Of a stretch of DNA of 64,000 nucleotides, positions 42,237-52,525 are shown one piece after another; the stretch's first letter is position 1; the number at the start of each line of letters is the position of its first letter. The DNA is taken from NCBI RefSeq assembly GCF_014284235.1, contig NZ_JACOGD010000002.1, positions 310,001-374,000 on the forward strand, written 5' to 3'. The notes under the pieces were generated by a model. That model did no database searches. It was not told where the DNA came from and worked only from the letters and a program-made list of their open reading frames with translations. Both the position numbers and the translations under genes were made by a program. The DNA comes from Cognatundibacterium curvum. GTDB taxonomy: Bacteria; Pseudomonadota; Gammaproteobacteria; Burkholderiales; Burkholderiaceae_D.

Positions 42237-44294
42237 TCAATGCGTCAGCGTCATGATCAGGCGCCAGCTGCGGGGGCGTCCCGGGAAGAAGGTGTTATCG
42301 CTGTCCACTTCCCAGGTATCACGGTTGAACAGATTACTGACCTGAAAGCGCAATTGCAGCTTCGCTTTGCCCCAGTCCAGTTGATGACGCAAACCCAGTT
42401 GTACCAGGACTTTCTTATCGAGCCTGCTGCCACTGGATTCTGAGCTCGTTTGTGGGCCAGTGTACTGCAGCCCCAGATCGGCTGAACTATTCGGTAATTG
42501 AGGCGGGCTGTATTCGAGATAGCTGCGCACTTCCAGCGGCACACTGGCAACCGGTCTGACGCGGGCCGTATTGCTGAGTGGCTGATTGACGCGTGCATCC
42601 AGATAAACCGCGGCCATCACCAGATTCAGGTGTGGCGTCAGATTCCCGGCAATACTGCCTTCCAGTCCACGGTGCTGCACTTGTCCGGTCTGTACATACA
42701 GTTGTTGGCTGTTGAAGCCGTAATGCGGCTTGCTGACTTCAAAATAGCCCAACACCGCATTCAGGCTGCGTTCATCCTGCTGCCATTTCCAGCGCAGGCC
42801 CGCATCTTTTTGCGAGGTATGGATGGCGGGCAGCGCGGCAAAGCGGTTGCTGGCACTAACCGGCGCCACGCCACTTTCTTCCAGTCCCTGGGTTTGACCG
42901 CCATACAGCGAATAGCCTGCACCTAAAGCCAGACTGAGATTCCAGTAACCGAGCAAGGGTTGATCCTGCATGCGCACAAAGCTGCGTTCCTGTGCAGTGC
43001 CGGTCCAGGTTTGTTTGTCATAGTAAGACTTCATCAGACCCAGATTCAGCGTGGCACGTGCATTTTTGTATTCGTAGGCCAGTCCCAGATTATTTTGTCG
43101 TACGCGGTCCAGTGAGCGTTCGCCATATTGGAAATCAGGGGCCGTAGCGGGCAGCGTCAGTTCGGCGAATTGCTGGCGAAATGCTACAGTTCCAAGATCG
43201 GCGTAGGCTTCGCCACCATAGCGTTGTTCGCTGCGCCGTCCACGCCAGACCAGATGAAACTGTTGCCTGCTGTCCTCATGTTGCAGGGTTTTACTCAGCC
43301 TCAGTTCGGCACTGTCAGCTTGCTTACTGACGTTTTTTTCTGAGTAGTAACTGTTCTGCCAGTGATTCGCGGACAATTGTTCGATCACATGCGTTTCTGA
43401 TCGGGGGGAGTCGGCCGCTGAACGTATCAGGCTGCCTTTGATCAGCCACTGCCCTGGTAACTGTTGTTGGTAGATGATACCCAGGGTACGTGAGTGACCG
43501 TGGCCACGCATCCAGTCTGCCTTCATCGCGGACTTGTTCGCGATGTGATAGCTCTCTGCGGGCGGCAGTTTCCCATCCGGCACATACCAATAGCTGTGCG
43601 GTGTTTCATACGGCACCTGATCGTGGCTATAAAACGGCAGCAGTTCGAACGCGGTGTCGCCCTGATCTGCGCTGCGGATATGGCCTACGATGGCGGCCGA
43701 GCGGTAATACGATGCTTCATGCTGCGGGGTCAGTTCTTTAAAGGCCGATGCCGCAACCGATACGCCCATTTTGACGCGCGCATCAGGCGCTGTCAGTGGC
43801 AGCAGCGCATTGACATCGAGTGCACGGTCACCGGCGCCGCGCATAGAGTTTTCTAACTCCACAGAATAACTATATTCGGCCTGATCACCGGCTTTGCGCA
43901 GTTGATAATCCACGATGCCAGTCGGCGCCGGAAATGGATAACCTGTGACCGTGGTGCCTATCCTGACTTTAGAGCCATCCAGCAGCAAATGACCGAGATA
44001 AGCACGCTTATCAAAGTACATGCCTTCTATCCGCAAATTACCTGCTTTGCCAGGGGAGAAGCCGCGCACATTGCTGTCGCTGTAGATGCCGATGGATTCT
44101 TTTCCCGCCTGATTACCAAAGCCATCTTCGGCCTGCGTGACGGCATTGTTTTTATCTGGGGCAGCGGTTTCCGTGCGCACCGGACTGGCCAATTCATCCG
44201 CCTGCGCGGGTAGCAGCCAGGCCTGTGTGACCAATGCCAGCACAGTCAGGCACAGGTGTTGATGTTTTTTGACGGTGCGGGTCTTTTGCTTCAT
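42237..44294 (-). CDS. TonB-dependent outer-membrane receptor
   Basis: Outer-membrane beta-barrel of 685 residues that imports a scarce ligand using TonB energy. A signal peptide (about residues 1-32, ending AQA) is followed by a plug domain starting near 50 with FGNQAGKESIGIYSDSNVRGFSPGKAGNLRIEG in outline, then a long barrel with alternating aromatic strands. GYPFPAPTGIVDY is a distinctive block of a receptor subgroup of unknown or siderophore-like substrates. The usual terminal phenylalanine is replaced (ends MTLTH). No cobalamin riboswitch or Fur box was seen upstream, so the ligand is open. It is divergent from argJ. Confidence 0.85.
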   Translation of the reverse strand: MKQKTRTVKKHQHLCLTVLALVTQAWLLPAQADELASPVRTETAAPDKNNAVTQAEDGFGNQAGKESIGIYSDSNVRGFSPGKAGNLRIEGMYFDKRAYLGHLLLDGSKVRIGTTVTGYPFPAPTGIVDYQLRKAGDQAEYSYSVELENSMRGAGDRALDVNALLPLTAPDARVKMGVSVAASAFKELTPQHEASYYRSAAIVGHIRSADQGDTAFELLPFYSHDQVPYETPHSYWYVPDGKLPPAESYHIANKSAMKADWMRGHGHSRTLGIIYQQQLPGQWLIKGSLIRSAADSPRSETHVIEQLSANHWQNSYYSEKNVSKQADSAELRLSKTLQHEDSRQQFHLVWRGRRSEQRYGGEAYADLGTVAFRQQFAELTLPATAPDFQYGERSLDRVRQNNLGLAYEYKNARATLNLGLMKSYYDKQTWTGTAQERSFVRMQDQPLLGYWNLSLALGAGYSLYGGQTQGLEESGVAPVSASNRFAALPAIHTSQKDAGLRWKWQQDERSLNAVLGYFEVSKPHYGFNSQQLYVQTGQVQHRGLEGSIAGNLTPHLNLVMAAVYLDARVNQPLSNTARVRPVASVPLEVRSYLEYSPPQLPNSSADLGLQYTGPQTSSESSGSRLDKKVLVQLGLRHQLDWGKAKLQLRFQVSNLFNRDTWEVDSDNTFFPGRPRSWRLIMTLTH

Positions 44295-46697: not shown

Positions 46698-47118
46698 AAT
46701 TGCAGCAAAAGCGAAGCGCCCGGTCGATGTCGCGGTCGGCATCCTGATGCGTCCAGATGGGGATGTATTGCTGGCGCAACGTCCGCCCGGCAAGCCTTAT
46801 GAAGGTTACTGGGAATTTCCGGGCGGTAAGGTCGAGTCCGGTGAGGATATCCTGGCAGCCCTCAAGCGTGAATTTCTGGAAGAACTGGGCATACGGATTA
46901 TCGATGCCCAGCCCTGGTGTGGTGTTGAGCATGTTTATCCACACGCCCATGTGAGGCTGCATTTTTTCATCAGTCATCAATGGGAAGGTGAGCCGCAAAG
47001 TCTGGAAGGACAGGCGTTTGCCTGGCAGGGTCAGGTTGCGGTAGAGCCTCTGTTGCCTGCTACCATACCCTTACTCAGCTACCTGGGTTTATTGCAGGAC
47101 GATTTGCAGGCCGCCTGA
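46690..47118 (+). CDS. mutT: 8-oxo-dGTP diphosphatase MutT
   Basis: Nudix hydrolase of 142 residues that removes mutagenic 8-oxo-dGTP from the nucleotide pool. The Nudix box GX5EX7REUXEEXGU is present as GGKVESGEDILAALKREFLEELGI in outline (residues about 39-62). RPPGKPYEGYWEFPGG is typical of MutT. The start at 46690 follows GGAGAAAAC and lies inside the end of the preceding gene. It ends the argJ-DUF815-mutT operon. Confidence 0.94.
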   Translation: MSEIAAKAKRPVDVAVGILMRPDGDVLLAQRPPGKPYEGYWEFPGGKVESGEDILAALKREFLEELGIRIIDAQPWCGVEHVYPHAHVRLHFFISHQWEGEPQSLEGQAFAWQGQVAVEPLLPATIPLLSYLGLLQDDLQAA

Positions 47119-47355
47119 GCCCCACTCTGGGCTCAGACTAAAACGATACACCAGGCGGCACGGAAGCCACCGTGCCCGCGAGTCCTTGCTCTGTTCCATT
47201 TCCACATCTTCATACCGTCGCCTTGACGGGCGGCGCTTTTTCATCTGTTTGTCCAGCATTCGTGCGCTGTCTTATCTATACAACTCACTCCGTAGTTTTA
47301 CTTATTGCCGGAACTAATCCTGACTGAGATGATCAGCACTTGATTTTCTTTATTG
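47119..47355. other. Region after mutT with hairpins, no gene
   Basis: TGAGCCC (47116-47122) with GGGCTCA (47129-47135), GGCACGG (47157-47163) with CCGTGCC (47170-47176), and GTCGCC (47217-47222) with GGCGGC (47229-47234) followed by five T form three hairpins. The last is the best terminator candidate for the argJ-mutT operon. No coding sequence was found. Confidence 0.5.
47217..47241 (+). terminator. Possible terminator of the argJ-DUF815-mutT operon
   Basis: A short GC-rich stem (GTCGCC/GGCGGC with one G-T pair) is followed by GCTTTTT. The stem is only 6 bp, so it is a moderate candidate. Confidence 0.45.
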
Positions 47356-47392
47356 TGTATTGAAAACAATACAGTGTATTAAATTTGATACA
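47356..47392. promoter_or_regulatory. Two adjacent TyrR-box-like operators (enhancer of the dad operon)
   Basis: TGTATTGAAAACAATACA (47356-47373) and TGTATTAAATTTGATACA (47375-47392) each have the form TGT-N12-ACA, the layout of the TyrR box, and are separated by one base, as in adjacent TyrR boxes of Escherichia coli. The inverted arms are perfect over 7 bp in box 1; box 2 is centred in a 9-bp inverted repeat (47371-47379 with 47388-47396). A TyrR-family activator is encoded by the operon's last gene. Confidence 0.7.
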
Positions 47393-47537
47393 CTGTTCAT
47401 GAATTCGTACGCTCTAGAGGGAGGCTTCAGTCTTTTGACTGGAGAATCAGTGAAGGGTGTACGGATTTTAATACACCTGGTTGCCAGAGTTTTTTCTGGT
47501 GTGTTGTAAGTCATTGAATCAGCTGACTATTTTGCAG

Positions 47538-47553
47538 TGGCATGAGCATTGCT
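47538..47553 (+). promoter_or_regulatory. Sigma-54 promoter of the alr-dadA operon
   Basis: TGGCATGAGCATTGCT matches the sigma-54 consensus TGGCAC-N5-TTGCW closely. The -24 GG (47539-47540) and -12 GC (47551-47552) are separated by exactly 10 bp. Transcription should start near 47564, giving a leader of about 113 nt before alr. The TyrR-like boxes lie about 180 and 200 bp upstream of that start, a normal enhancer distance. Confidence 0.8.
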
Positions 47554-47677
47554 AGGTGGAGTAAAACTTTCTACTAAGGGTGGCGCGGCCGCAAGTTGGA
47601 ATATCTTGGCAAATGCCAGTGAAATTCGCAGGCTAAGGGCTCGCAGACATCCGGCTATCGAGCAATGGAGTGCGTGA

Positions 47678-48781
47678 ATGATGCAAGAAATGACGGGAAG
47701 AAGTGGTGCAGTGCTGCGGGTGGATTTGCAAGCTGTGCAAAACAATTACCGCTTACTGAGTCAGAAACTGGGTAAGGCGCAATGTGGTGCGGCCGTCAAA
47801 GCCGATGCCTATGGGCTGGGCGCGATCCCGGTCTCGGGTGCCTTGTATGCGGCCGGATGCCGGCATTTTTTTGTAGCGCATCTGGAAGAAGCGATCAGTT
47901 TGCGTCCGCATCTGCCGTCTGACGCGCGCCTGATTGTGATGCATGGTTCGCCGGTCGGGTATGAAGCCGAGTTCCTCGAACATGGCTGCATGCCGGTACT
48001 GAACAGCCTGGCTCAGGTAAGCGCCTGGCGTGCTCTTGCGAAACAACAGCAGCGTGCATTGCCTGCCATCGTGCAGTTCGATACCGGCATGGCGCGCATG
48101 GGCTTGTCAGCACAGGAAGTGGAAGTCTGGCGCAATGATGCAGATTTCCTGGAAGGCATACAGGTTGAATACCTGATGAGCCATCTGGTCAGTGCGGAGG
48201 ATGCGTCCCATCCTGTGAATGCAATGCAGTTGGCACGCTTCAACGACTTACGCGGTTTGTTGCCACAGGCGAAGGCAAGTCTGGCTAACTCCTCGGGTGT
48301 ATTCCTGGGAGCGGCCTATCACTTTGATCTGGCGCGTCCGGGTGCTGCTTTGTATGGGGTGGCGCCGGTAGCAGGACAAGCCAATCCTATGCAGGCAGTC
48401 GCGTATTTGCAAGGCCGCATCATTCAGGTACGTGAGATTCCACCGGATACCGGCGTTGGTTACGGCTCCACCTGGCGTAGCCGGGATACTGCGAAAATCG
48501 CGACAGTCGCGGTCGGTTATGCCGATGGCTGGATGCGTAGTCTGAGTAACCGTGGTGTGGCACAGATAGGTGGGCAGGAAGTACCACTGGTAGGGAATGT
48601 ATCGATGGATACCATTACGCTGGACGTGACAGCGATTGCCGACAGTGAGCTGCAAGAGGGGGCACTGGTGGATTTGCTGTCTGCCAGCAATACCGTCGAT
48701 CAGGTCGCTGCGCGCGCAGGCACCATAGGTTATGAAATCCTGACCAGTCTGGGCCACCGCTATCAGCGCGTTTACCGCTAA
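47678..48781 (+). CDS. alr: Alanine racemase, probably the catabolic (DadX) enzyme
   Basis: PLP enzyme of 367 residues that interconverts L- and D-alanine. The Schiff-base lysine is in [12 protein letters not shown] near residue 38, and the catalytic tyrosine is in VGYGSTW near 262. [19 protein letters not shown] and DTGMARMGL are also family blocks. Its pairing with dadA and the sigma-54 promoter indicate a catabolic role (L-alanine to D-alanine, then to pyruvate), not supply for cell-wall synthesis. A double ATG opens the frame (47678, 47681), preceded by GGAG. I cannot exclude that it also serves as the only racemase. Confidence 0.92.
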
Positions 48782-48839
48782 GCAGTCAGCAGCATCTACA
48801 ACACATCACTTATTAAAACAGGCATCAAGGAGCAAAACA

Positions 48840-50132
48840 ATGAAAGTTATCGTACTCGGCGCAGGCGTGATCGGAACCGCAACTGCCTATTATCTGGCAA
48901 AAGCGGGTCATGAAGTGACCGTGATTGAGCGTCAGCAAGGTGCCGCACTGGAAACTAGTTTTGCCAATGCCGGTGAGGTATCGCCTGGCTACTCGGCACC
49001 TTGGGCTGGTCCCGGCGTGCCGCTGAAAGCCATCAAATGGCTGATGATGGAGCATAGCCCGCTGGCGATACGTCCGACTTTCGATCTGAACACCTGGCGC
49101 TGGGTCATGCAGATGCTGATGAATTGCACCAGCTCCCGCTATGAAGTGAACAAGGGACGCATGCTGCGTATGGCTGAATATAGCCGCGATGTATTGCAAC
49201 AACTGCGTGCCGATACCGGTATTTCCTATGATGAGCGCACGCAGGGTACTTTGCAGTTGTTCCGTAATCAGGCACAACTGGAAGGCGCTGATGCCGATAT
49301 CGCGATTCTGAACCGCTATGGCGTGAAGTATGAAAAACTGGATAAAGCAGGATGCCTGAAAGTAGAACCGGCACTGGCTAAAGTACAGGAAAAGTTTGTC
49401 GGCGCATTGCGTCTGCCTGGTGATGAAACTGGCGATTGCTTTAAATTTACGCAAAACCTTGCCAAGCTGGCAGAGGGCCTGGGCGTCAAGTTCCGTTACG
49501 GCGTCAGCATACAGCGTCTGGTGTACAGCGGTGATCAGGTCAGCTCAGTCATTACCTCAGAAGGCGAGCTGAAGGCCGATAGTTTTGTGCTGGCGCTAGG
49601 CAGCTATTCGCCTATCCTGTTGCGCGAGCTGGGCATACGGATTCCGGTCTATCCGATCAAGGGTTATTCGATCACCGTGCCGATTACCGATGCCAGCGCC
49701 GCGCCGGAATCCACCGTGATGGATGAAACCTATAAAGTGGCGATCACCCGTCTGGGCGACCGTATCCGTGTTGGCGGAACCGCAGAAATCACCGGTTACA
49801 ACCTTGAGTTGCGTGCAGATCGCCGCGCGACACTGGAGTATTCTGTGAGTGATCTGTTCCCGGCTGGTGGCGATGTCAGCAAAGCGGAGTTCTGGACTGG
49901 TCTGCGTCCTATGACACCGGATGGCACGCCAGTGGTTGGTCCTACGCCTTACCGTAATTTATTCCTGAACACAGGACATGGCACCTTAGGTTGGACCATG
50001 GCTTGCGGCTCAGGGCAATTCGTTGCCGATATCGTTTCCGGAAAACGGCCGGCAATTTCCACGGAAGGTTTATTCATGAGCCGTTATGGCAGCGTGAACC
50101 GTCCCATCATTGTTCCCAAGGAGTTGGCATGA
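48840..50132 (+). CDS. dadA: D-amino acid dehydrogenase small subunit DadA
   Basis: Membrane-associated FAD enzyme of 430 residues that oxidises D-alanine and other D-amino acids to 2-oxo acids and ammonia and passes electrons to the respiratory chain. The N-terminal FAD fold [20 protein letters not shown] is followed by [20 protein letters not shown], a DadA hallmark. [14 protein letters not shown] near residue 380 is the C-terminal FAD contact. A strong AAGGAG ribosome-binding site precedes it. It lies 58 bp after alr and overlaps the next gene by 4 bp (ATGA). Confidence 0.96.
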
Positions 50133-50689
50133 GCCAGTTTGAACAATTGTTTTCTTCTACGCAGGTGTTTGCAGACGCCAATCTGAATACCCGTTTTTAT
50201 ACCGCCATTGAATTGCTGGCGCAGGTGATGATGGTCATGCCACGCGCCGCGACCATCAGCAGTCTGGCGGAAGCAACGGGAAAAACACCGCGTCTGGTCC
50301 GTTCTATCTTATCGACCTTGAGTAAGGATGGACTGGTCGGCCGCGATGCCAAGGATAAAGATGCCTGGCATTGCCGCGACTGTAACGGCATCATCACACT
50401 GGCCGATGTGTACCGGTGTTTTGTCGAAGCAGAAGAGCGTGCGGCCCTGAAAGCAGCCCGGCGTGCAGAAAAAAATGCTGAGCACGCAGAGTTGGGAGTG
50501 CAGACTTCCAGAAGTTCAAGCCAGCAAAGTGTGGACCTGCTGATGTTGCAGGTCAAAATGACGGTCAACCGCGCAGTGTTGCAACAGTTGGAGCAATTCG
50601 ACCTGAGCCGTCTGCGTGGCTTGGCCAGCACCACTGCATTCCGCGCGCAGCATGCCAGACCGCGCGGCTATATTCCTGAGCCTTACTGA
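50129..50689 (+). CDS. Winged-helix (Rrf2/IclR-like) DNA-binding protein of unknown role
   Basis: Predicted transcription factor of 186 residues. [32 protein letters not shown] in outline (about residues 47-77) is a winged helix-turn-helix like that of Rrf2 or IclR-type proteins. [18 protein letters not shown] follows, with a CxxC pair. The middle (about 115-145) is a charged Ala/Glu/Arg stretch of likely helix or coil. It overlaps dadA by 4 bp and ends 17 bp before the TyrR-like gene, so it belongs to the operon. The start at 50129 follows AAGGAGTTGGC. I know no described partner role for such a protein in alanine catabolism. Confidence 0.75.
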
Positions 50690-50706
50690 GTTCCGGCCGC
50701 CTCTGC

Positions 50707-52266
50707 ATGCGTATTAATATCCAGTTTCAGGACAGGGTCGGCATCGCCCATGAAATACTGGCCGTGCTGGCACAGCGCGGACTGAACGTGGTCGCGGTTG
50801 AGGTTGATCCGCCTCAGGTCTATATCGATATCCCTGAGCTGAGCAAAGACATGCTGCCTTCGCTGCAGCAAGCCTGTCAGCAAATCAGCGGCGTGACACA
50901 AATACAGGTGATCGACGTATTACCCGGTATGCGCCGTCGCCTGCATCTCGACACCATGATGGCCGTGATGGAAGATCCGGTACTGGCCATCGATGGTGAA
51001 GCCAGACTGGTGATCGCGAATGCCGCTGCGGCAGCCGTGACTGGCCTGAGTGAGGCGCAGTTAGCTCAGCTCAAACTCAGTGATGTGCTGGATGATCAGG
51101 GCTTGCAGGAAGAATTACTGCAGGCAGGCTTACGTATTCCCAGCCGCGAAGTGCGTTTGCATGGCGAACCGTTTTTCATGGATGTGACGCCGGTATCCGA
51201 GCCGGTGCTGCCGGATGGTACGGCGCTGCATCGCTCGGTCGGCGCGGTGCTGACCTTTCATGCGCCTTCACGCATAGGCGGACGGCTGCATGCCTTGCAG
51301 AATACCCAGGGAAATGGCTTTGATCTGATCATCGGTGATTCAGAGCAAATCCGCGCCATGAAAACCCGCGCCGCCCGAGTTGCGGTGGTCGATGCTCCTT
51401 TGCTGATCACTGGTGAAACCGGTACTGGCAAAGAATTGCTGGCGCAGGCCTGTCATGGCGTCAGCGCGCGCAGTAATGCGCCTTTTCTCGAACTGAATTG
51501 CGCTGCTCTGCCGGAAAGCCTGGCGGAAAGCGAATTGTTTGGCTATATGTCAGGCGCTTTCACTGGTGCGCAAAAAGGCGGCAAGCCGGGTCTGTTTGAA
51601 ATGGCCGATGGCGGCACCGTTTTTCTGGATGAGATCGGGGAAATGTCGCTGTATTTGCAGGCGAAATTATTGCGCTTCCTGAATGACGGCAAATTCCGTC
51701 GTATCGGCGGCGATAAAGAGATACGTGTGAATGTACGCATCATCAGCGCCACGCATCGCAATTTGCGCAAAATGGTACAGGAAGGCTTGTTCAGGGAGGA
51801 CCTGTTTTATCGCCTGAATGTCTTACATCTGGAAATGCCGGCACTGCGCGAGCGTCCGGATGACATCCTGCCACTGGCCCGCCATTTCATTGAACGTGCC
51901 TGTACCCAGTCGCAAAAGCCGGTGTGCCGTCTCAATACCGCAGCCTGTGCAGCCTTGGTAGCCAATCATTGGCCAGGTAATGTGCGGCAATTGCAGAATG
52001 TGGTATTCCGGGCCATTACTATGTCAGACCAGCGTGTGCTGGATGCGGCAGATCTGGATTGGGCTGAGGGCAGCATCAGTGCAGATGAACACAGTGCCGT
52101 TGACACAGAAAGCTGGGATCTGGCCTTACAACAGTTTGAGCAGAGTCTGTTGACGCGCCTGTATCCGCATTTTCCTTCCAGTCGTAAGCTCGCCGCGCGC
52201 TTGCAGACTTCACATTCAACGATCGCGGCCAAGCTCAGGAAATACGGCATACCGCAAAAGCGTTGA
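50707..52266 (+). CDS. TyrR/PhhR-family sigma-54-dependent transcriptional activator
   Basis: Regulator of 519 residues. Domains in order: ACT ligand-binding domain (about 1-75), PAS domain (about 80-150), AAA+ domain (about 210-440) with Walker A GETGTGKELLA near 235, GAFTGA near 283 and Walker B GGTVFLDEIGEM near 300, and a C-terminal TyrR-type helix-turn-helix (SSRKLAARLQTSHSTIAAKLRKYG, about 492-515, shown in part). Escherichia coli TyrR lacks GAFTGA, whereas Pseudomonas PhhR keeps it and works with sigma-54; this protein is of the PhhR kind. The matching promoter and boxes lie upstream of alr, so the operon probably controls itself. The effector is probably an amino acid. Confidence 0.88.
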   Translation: MRINIQFQDRVGIAHEILAVLAQRGLNVVAVEVDPPQVYIDIPELSKDMLPSLQQACQQISGVTQIQVIDVLPGMRRRLHLDTMMAVMEDPVLAIDGEARLVIANAAAAAVTGLSEAQLAQLKLSDVLDDQGLQEELLQAGLRIPSREVRLHGEPFFMDVTPVSEPVLPDGTALHRSVGAVLTFHAPSRIGGRLHALQNTQGNGFDLIIGDSEQIRAMKTRAARVAVVDAPLLITGETGTGKELLAQACHGVSARSNAPFLELNCAALPESLAESELFGYMSGAFTGAQKGGKPGLFEMADGGTVFLDEIGEMSLYLQAKLLRFLNDGKFRRIGGDKEIRVNVRIISATHRNLRKMVQEGLFREDLFYRLNVLHLEMPALRERPDDILPLARHFIERACTQSQKPVCRLNTAACAALVANHWPGNVRQLQNVVFRAITMSDQRVLDAADLDWAEGSISADEHSAVDTESWDLALQQFEQSLLTRLYPHFPSSRKLAARLQTSHSTIAAKLRKYGIPQKR

Positions 52267-52348
52267 CTGTCATTTGACAGTTCAGGCCAGCAGCAGGCAA
52301 ATTTAATTTAGCTGGACTGGCTGAACTCATTGAGAAAGCAGGAAGGAT

Positions 52349-52525
52349 TTACTCAGGCTGATCCGGATCTTCCGGCAGATTGACGGCGGGGATAGTGTAT
52401 TTCTCTTCGGCCCAGGCACCCAGGTCGATTTGCTTGCAGCGTTCAGAGCAAAACGGACGCCATGTGCTGTCGGGCGTCCAGGCGACTTTTGCCTGACAGG
52501 TCGGGCAATTGACGAAGGTGGTCAT
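52349..52525 (-). CDS. yacG: DNA gyrase inhibitor / zinc-binding protein YacG
   Basis: Small protein of 58 residues, too short for many gene lists. It starts [16 protein letters not shown] and continues with [22 protein letters not shown]. The four cysteines (C-x2-C and C-x3-C) form the zinc site of YacG, which in Escherichia coli binds GyrB and inhibits gyrase. The tail EDPDQPE is acidic and probably disordered. It is last in the pilBCD-coaE-zapD-yacG cluster, the expected order, 27 bp after zapD. Confidence 0.92.

Follow-up and report, generated by a model that had tools for sequence, protein, structure and literature searches.

Does the operon for alanine racemase and D-amino acid dehydrogenase in Cognatundibacterium curvum stand under an enhancer-dependent sigma-54 promoter, and which protein would then activate it? 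Promoters of this kind are usually regarded as switches for optional functions and tend to be silent without their activator. The question arises from the 64,000-nucleotide stretch analysed here (hereafter the window), in which four genes on the forward strand follow one another in the order alr-dadA-Rrf2-like-tyrR. The first, alr (47678..48781), encodes an alanine racemase of what we label the dad type (PF01168 and PF00842; TIGR00492 above the cut-off), and the second, dadA (48840..50132), a D-amino acid dehydrogenase (NF001933, 701.9 bits against a cut-off of 383). They are followed by a gene for a small Rrf2-like protein (50129..50689), whose match to Pfam Rrf2 (21.8 bits) lies below the gathering score of 30, and by a gene for a TyrR-type enhancer-binding protein (50707..52266). 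The sequence evidence supports the view of the first-pass annotation that alr and dadA form an operon with the product of the 50707 gene as its regulator, as it does the reading of the upstream DNA as a -24/-12 promoter with TyrR-type boxes in an enhancer-type arrangement. No adjacent lrp/asnC gene was recognised by eye among the open reading frames of at least 100 amino acids near the operon. Farther upstream, on the reverse strand, the window contains an open reading frame for 685 amino acids (42237-44294), for which Pfam gave no match at E up to 0.001.

The putative promoter ahead of alr is a -24/-12 element, TGGCATGAGCATTGCT, at 47538..47553 of the forward strand; it has GG and GC at the exact -24/-12 spacing and departs from TGGCAC-N5-TTGCW by one mismatch, a T instead of C at position 6 of the -24 part. 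The predicted transcript start lies at about 47564. Upstream, the distal boxes D1 (TGTATTGAAAACAATACA, 47356..47373, +) and D2 (TGTATTAAATTTGATACA, 47375..47392, +) both match TGT-N12-ACA exactly, are separated by a single base and stand some 145 bp ahead of the -24 element. The sequence and position of the -24/-12 element and of this pair of boxes had been given by the first-pass annotation and proved exact; its account of the control site was nevertheless incomplete, as it overlooked three further elements. These are a proximal box P (TGTACGGATTTTAATACA, 47458..47475, +), again an exact TGT-N12-ACA; a degenerate box D3 (TGTTCATGAATTCGTACG, TGT-N12-ACG, 47394..47411, +) in the same register, 19 bp past D2; and, between the boxes and the promoter, a predicted IHF site (TAAGTCATTGAAT, 47507..47519, +) one mismatch away from the IHF consensus YAA-N4-TTGATW. 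The pattern TTRATA-N17-TACGCT following D2 was also considered as a sigma-70 promoter and rejected, as its TACG columns, which are conserved in 21 genomes, fit the right half of D3 better.

Neither motif exceeds its expectation from shuffled sequences in the window (13 TGT-N12-ACA boxes against 15.8 expected; one sigma-54 pattern with one mismatch against 1.51), so the window alone proves nothing and relatives were consulted. At the level of the whole genome, which has one copy of rpoN and also an IHF alpha gene, the pattern TGGCAYRNNNNTTGCW yields 16 sites compared with one for the reversed control. Eight of the 16 were readable as loci, one being the alr promoter, and the IHF-like 13-mer of that promoter recurs close by at only one of the other seven: at L005 it is inverted at -29, at L006 a match is found at -112, and the remaining five have none. 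L005 itself (C22:381250, about 7 kb past the end of the window) combines a consensus -24/-12 element with the inverted 13-mer. A search with TGTAY-N8-RTACA returned 12 genomic sites, three of them at the alr promoter, against five for the control, and the idea of a wide TyrR regulon was dropped.

For the comparison within the genus, we collected the upstream regions of 38 of the 39 genomes carrying the TyrR-type gene (one of them, G313, via a second contig, L199); the remaining genome, G356, is outside this set because its contig begins inside dadA. A -24/-12 element with at most one mismatch precedes alr in 38/38 genomes, compared with 1.2% of shuffled 600-bp upstream sequences, and an exact box at the proximal or distal place is likewise found in all 38 (proximal in 33, distal in 30), compared with 1.8% of shuffled single sequences. 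Because of their common ancestry the 38 genomes do not count as independent cases, and one exact box counted as distal (L196, at -184) is probably a displaced proximal one. Conservation of the boxes and the -24/-12 element in close relatives, a check that had been set beforehand, was thus borne out, and it rules out a chance motif. Box P is exact in 33/38 genomes and present in 37/38 if one mismatch to TGTA-N10-TACA is allowed, at -79 to -102 from the start of the -24 element; the distal pair, 19 bp apart and with at most one mismatch to TGTA-N10-TACA in each box, occurs in 33/38, and TGT-N12-AC[AG] is found at the D3 place (D2 + 19) in 19/38. The IHF-like site, searched with the loosened pattern YAA-N4-YTGAW[ACT], is found in 35/38 genomes as opposed to 0.7% of shuffles; L184 and L199 are without a match, and an insertion in L196 disrupts the spacing. 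While the DNA between the elements has diverged among the genomes of the genus, the elements themselves have been kept, and most of the strongly conserved columns are those of the boxes, the IHF-like site and the promoter (21 of the 25 genomes with standard spacing, near-duplicates removed).

The spacing of the elements is nearly fixed. D2 starts 79-84 bp before P, and P lies 48-51 bp from the IHF-like site, in each case in the 35/38 genomes where both were found. The IHF-like site is located at -31 to -33 from the -24 element in 23 genomes, at -41/-42 in 11 and at -52 in one. The genomes in which the upstream elements lie about 10 bp (in one genome 21 bp) farther from the -24 element fall into a single clade of the regulator tree, comprising L183, L186 and the group lacking Dat discussed below (support 93/82). 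The upstream block has thus been displaced by about one or two helix turns relative to the -24 element, as would be expected if the regulator must face the polymerase through a bent loop. An inverted repeat, TAGA-N8-TCTA, was also seen between the distal and proximal boxes, at a nearly constant position (about -120 to -126 relative to the start of the -24 element), in 12/38 genomes (L021, L166, L173-L176, L178, L180, L181, L184, L187 and L199), and its binder is perhaps the Rrf2-like protein. The gene for the latter gave a tblastn match in 24 of the 38 genus stretches; none was obtained in L183 and L186-L197, and L199 ends short of the place of the gene. Two further candidate features were not retained: a structured RNA leader (two Rfam matches, both far below the gathering score) and a conserved upstream terminator, a terminator-like hairpin being detected in only 11/38 upstream regions.

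The protein encoded at 50707..52266 has the domain order ACT-PAS-AAA+-HTH_50 according to Pfam (ACT with 26.9 bits, just under the gathering score of 27) and an intact GAFTGA loop for contact with sigma-54 (SGAFTGAQ). The corresponding motif reads GAFSGA, GSFSGA or GAFTSA in the regulators of some relatives; Ser at the Thr position is listed for the known regulator BkdR in the accessible portion of one study (PMC3162934), so the GAFSGA relatives need not be inactive. The 50707 protein is the sole match to HTH_50 (PF18024) in the genome at E up to 0.001, and its score with the TyrR equivalog model NF008085 (486.5 bits) does not reach the cut-off of 576, which marks it as TyrR-like rather than as an E. 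coli-type TyrR. A tree of 29 rows places it with dad-linked TyrR proteins and GcsR-like proteins of Pseudomonas (97/98), apart from TyrR of Aeromonas and Vibrio and from two Pseudomonas rows that we presume to be PhhR, which carry GAFEGA instead of GAFTGA and are about 42% identical to it. Of the initial reading of this protein as a TyrR/PhhR-type regulator working with sigma-54, the TyrR part stands and the PhhR part is ruled out by the tree and the motif, GcsR being the nearer relative. We regard the product of the last gene of the operon as the probable activator of the alr promoter. A match to this regulator at E up to 1e-100 was obtained in 10 of 97 sampled genomes of the family, C. curvum included. 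Within the genus the regulator was found in 39 of the 43 genomes, among them 35/35 of those that are near-complete (completeness of at least 90%, contamination of at most 5%).

Across the family, 32 of 392 genomes carry the combination of a box and, after 50-70 bp, a -24/-12 element, compared with 1/392 for the reversed control. As many as 29 of the 32 sites precede alr, dadA or an alanine dehydrogenase gene (22 in the genus and seven outside), two (G176 and G332) lie before a gene that we take to be TolC-like, and the remaining one is in G014. The two TolC-like cases show a TGTAAA-type box with a -24/-12 element (L200, 4623-4713; L201, 4119-4207), and the gene is possibly a second target of a TyrR-type protein or of another activator. 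At L248 the same promoter unit as before alr precedes an alanine dehydrogenase gene (TIGR00518, 539.6 bits, cut-off 391.85), and at L245 (G151) the alr match is limited to residues 2-78, where the sequence turns into undetermined bases, and the stretch gave no match to tyrR. The full IHF consensus recurs at a similar distance from the promoter in L244 and L248 (-31) and in L026 (-32). Eight of the ten tyrR loci of the family sample have a -24/-12 element with at most one mismatch, seven of these together with an exact box; among the loci outside the genus, L024 has the element and no exact box, and L023 and L027 lack a -24/-12 element even at up to two mismatches. At eight of the ten loci dadA lies near tyrR, the exceptions being L023 and L025, whose fetched stretches lack it. 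In L025 (G025) the full promoter unit lies directly ahead of an Rrf2-like-tyrR pair, with neither dadA nor alr in the fetched stretch. By eye, a -24/-12 element with one mismatch was recognised before dadA of Caenispirillum (L029), with boxes deviating from TGT-N12-ACA, and similar boxes with a -24/-12-like element of two mismatches near dadA of another member of Burkholderiales (L036).

The same family also contains dad loci whose genomes gave no match to the 50707 regulator in the family-sample search (L232-L241). Their genes are related to those of the window (dadA 58-61% and alr 50-61% identical) and stand in the order dadA-alr, with a divergent lrp gene at 9/10 loci (two of the Lrp proteins were checked in NCBIfam). 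No -24/-12 element with at most one mismatch occurs within 500 bp in any of the ten; L238 has one with two mismatches, and L234 a lone exact box. Regulator and promoter type, as predicted from these motifs, change together between the tyrR-linked and the lrp-linked dad loci.

The elements, their conservation and spacing and the gene context lead us to conclude that positions 47356-47553 very probably constitute a complete sigma-54 control region, driven by the TyrR/GcsR-type protein of the operon and likely responsive to alanine. The 50707 protein would bind D1, D2, the weak D3 and box P; IHF would probably bend the DNA at 47507-47519 and thereby bring the activator onto RNA polymerase-sigma-54 at the -24/-12 element, and ATP hydrolysis by the AAA+ domain would open the promoter. 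Alanine (D- or L-) is the likely signal, given that the promoter unit in relatives stands before alr, dadA or alanine dehydrogenase genes. Since the operon encodes its own putative activator, a positive feedback loop would result.

At E up to 0.001, TIGR00492 matches 39 of the 43 genus genomes (35/35 near-complete ones) with one gene each, and in 38 of the 39 this is the gene of the operon, as it is in C. curvum; the match in G348 is a fragment at a contig edge, and alr of G313 is apparently split across two contigs. Among racemases of the TIGR00492 type, the operon alr is thus the sole one detected in the genus. Its complete genes in the genus score with E-values of 1e-67 to 3e-77. In the 97-genome family sample, 95 genomes match the model, 90 of them with a stronger match (1e-89 to 1e-114) that represents a different gene, 28-30% identical to alr of the window in the three cases checked; only the weaker type was found in the four members of the genus in the sample and in G072. 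The genus thus lacks the usual alr and has kept the one behind the putative sigma-54 promoter. The label of a circuit for D-alanine catabolism, given to the locus initially, describes only half of its likely role, as the switch would also control the principal recognisable pathway that supplies the cell wall with D-alanine.

A possible backup is encoded elsewhere in the genome of C. curvum, where a Dat-like gene lies (L250) between two genes that we take to be dacA and a DUF493-like gene. The best NCBIfam matches of its product are D-amino-acid transaminases, with 263.3 bits (cut-off 320) and 248.2 bits (cut-off 277.45); as both scores are below the cut-offs, a function as D-amino-acid transaminase is likely, not certain. 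Such an enzyme may supply D-alanine in C. curvum while the operon is off. Eleven genus genomes with upstream DNA lack a TIGR01121 match of more than about 60 bits and are here called Dat-less; nine of them are near-complete, and the absence is weak evidence in the other two, G352 (73% complete) and G359 (70%). In eight of the 35 near-complete genomes TIGR01121 finds nothing at 1e-10; G332, the ninth, has a weak match only, and so has G352. The surroundings of dacA were inspected in 12 genomes: dat adjoins it in G063, G085 and G119, in G176 and G303 DUF493 comes after dacA and dat is missing from between the two, neither gene adjoins it in the other six Dat-less genomes, and the same holds for G336, which has Dat elsewhere.

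In all 11 Dat-less genomes (L187-L197), a sigma-70-like extended -10 sequence TGN-TA[AG]AAT (5/6 matches) lies 26 bp downstream of the box P start, compared with 0/27 Dat-bearing genomes in that region. Within the 11, box P is 98% and the extended -10 stretch 91% identical, as against 41-42% upstream and 58% downstream. Transcription of alr need thus not depend on RpoN in this clade, and the coincidence suggests that the loss of Dat may have called for a constitutive alr promoter. On the regulator tree, the 11 genomes and the incomplete G356 form a single clade (100/100), so the pairing of the two events counts as a single coincidence rather than as eleven. A broader scenario, in which the cell-wall D-alanine supply of the genus came under a sigma-54 switch, the usual alr is gone and the catabolic racemase of the operon is the only one, Dat covers the off state and the Dat-less clade made up for its loss by evolving the extended -10 inside the enhancer, is conceivable from these data, and we consider it rather unlikely as a whole.

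How an essential enzyme, which requires basal expression, would be made when the switch is off bears on the first of three other explanations, namely that basal alr expression comes from upstream read-through or from a weak constitutive promoter and sigma-54 only boosts it on alanine. The genes argJ, an AAA+ gene and a mutT-like gene lie upstream of the operon on the same strand, and the low frequency of the terminator-like hairpin in the genus (11/38) would leave room for read-through. The window itself has such a hairpin at 47216-47235 and no sigma-70 consensus match in the region, and argJ with the AAA+ gene was found upstream in 19/38 genus stretches, whereas the remaining 19, among them L196 with only 1.1 kb of upstream sequence, gave neither; that the promoter is kept there as well indicates that it travels with the operon and not with its upstream neighbours. 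We hold this explanation to be a serious possibility, somewhat short of an even chance, and it may coexist with the sigma-54 switch. With no sigma-70 promoter detected in the window, a positive feedback loop would need some first supply of TyrR, for which read-through is a possible source.

It is improbable that the TyrR-type protein acts from its boxes on a hidden sigma-70 promoter and that the -24/-12 match is incidental; such a mode would parallel that of TyrR in E. coli, which acts with sigma-70 according to the available parts of two papers (PMC1173090 and PMC3162934). The extended -10 beside box P in the Dat-less clade could be read in its favour, as could the weak matches (9 of 12 positions) that an ordinary -35/-10 scan gave, in varying places, in 9/27 Dat-bearing genomes and 1/11 others. 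It would leave unaccounted for the intact GAFTGA loop of the 50707 protein, the presence of the -24/-12 element at near-fixed spacing in 38/38 genomes and the lack of any sigma-70-like site in 46700-52400, where shuffles lead one to expect 3.9. Still less probable is that a different regulator, the Rrf2-like protein or one encoded outside the operon, binds the 18-bp boxes: the operon does encode this second DNA-binding-like protein and the TAGA-N8-TCTA dyad of 12/38 genomes may be a separate site, but the boxes resemble the TyrR site TGTAAA-N6-TTTACA and the three-site GcsR promoter as described in the consulted part of one publication (PMC4894688), and they persist in L183 and L186-L197, loci at which tblastn detected tyrR and no Rrf2-like gene.

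The preferred reading, a sigma-54 promoter activated by the TyrR/GcsR-type protein of the operon, has precedents for its parts. In Azospirillum brasilense Sp7, the tyrR-dadA region is shown with TyrR boxes and a marked -24/-12 element, dadA mRNA is missing in a tyrR mutant, use of D-alanine as a carbon source needs TyrR, and the use of sigma-54 was concluded from the motif, as far as the accessible sections of the report go (PMC6375630). The window shares with that system a GAFTGA-bearing TyrR, the boxes, a -24/-12 element before a dad gene and the proximity of tyrR to dadA. It differs in that the two Azospirillum genes are divergent, with no alr or IHF site mentioned in those sections, whereas only the window has a four-gene operon with alr first, tyrR last and the Rrf2-like gene between dadA and tyrR. 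That the first-pass annotation knew of no described betaproteobacterial dad operon of this kind agrees with our literature search, which found none; the point is nevertheless limited by the TyrR-dependent dadA of Azospirillum (PMC6375630).

GcsR of Pseudomonas aeruginosa, a TyrR-like protein, senses glycine and controls the adjacent gcs2 operon from three 18-bp sites, with an RpoN-dependent reporter, according to the portions of the study available (PMC4894688). The GcsR-like Pseudomonas proteins that group with the 50707 protein are 54-57% identical to it, and gcv genes adjoin the regulator gene in L030 and L031, not in L032. Unlike gcsR, the regulator gene of the window sits inside an operon of alanine genes and has no link to glycine cleavage, and its boxes, of the TGTATT-N6-rATACA type, do not match the GcsR site TGTAACG-N4-CGTTCCG. 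PhhR of Pseudomonas is a TyrR homologue of amino-acid catabolism (PMC1173090 and PMC3162934, as far as available) that uses sigma-54 in P. aeruginosa (PMC1173090, likewise).

The mechanism proposed here is thus known in kind, a TyrR/GcsR-type protein acting on a sigma-54 promoter; what would be new is that it commands the only racemase detected in the genus. No sigma-54 control of an alanine racemase was found in the literature searched, which lay mostly outside subscription journals. A link of sigma-54 to cell-wall genes, though not to alr, has already been reported, as an rpoN mutant of a betaproteobacterium showed lower expression of ddl and mur genes in nodules in the part of that study available (PMC5979394).

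One promoter unit was found before three kinds of alanine genes, which would bring alanine within the range of the GAFTGA-bearing TyrR/GcsR group, alongside glycine and aromatic amino acids. The locus also raises the testable question of whether the supply of an essential wall precursor can sit under sigma-54 control, and with what backup. If the broader scenario were true, rpoN or tyrR would be synthetically lethal with dat in C. curvum, curable by D-alanine, and would not be so in the Dat-less clade.
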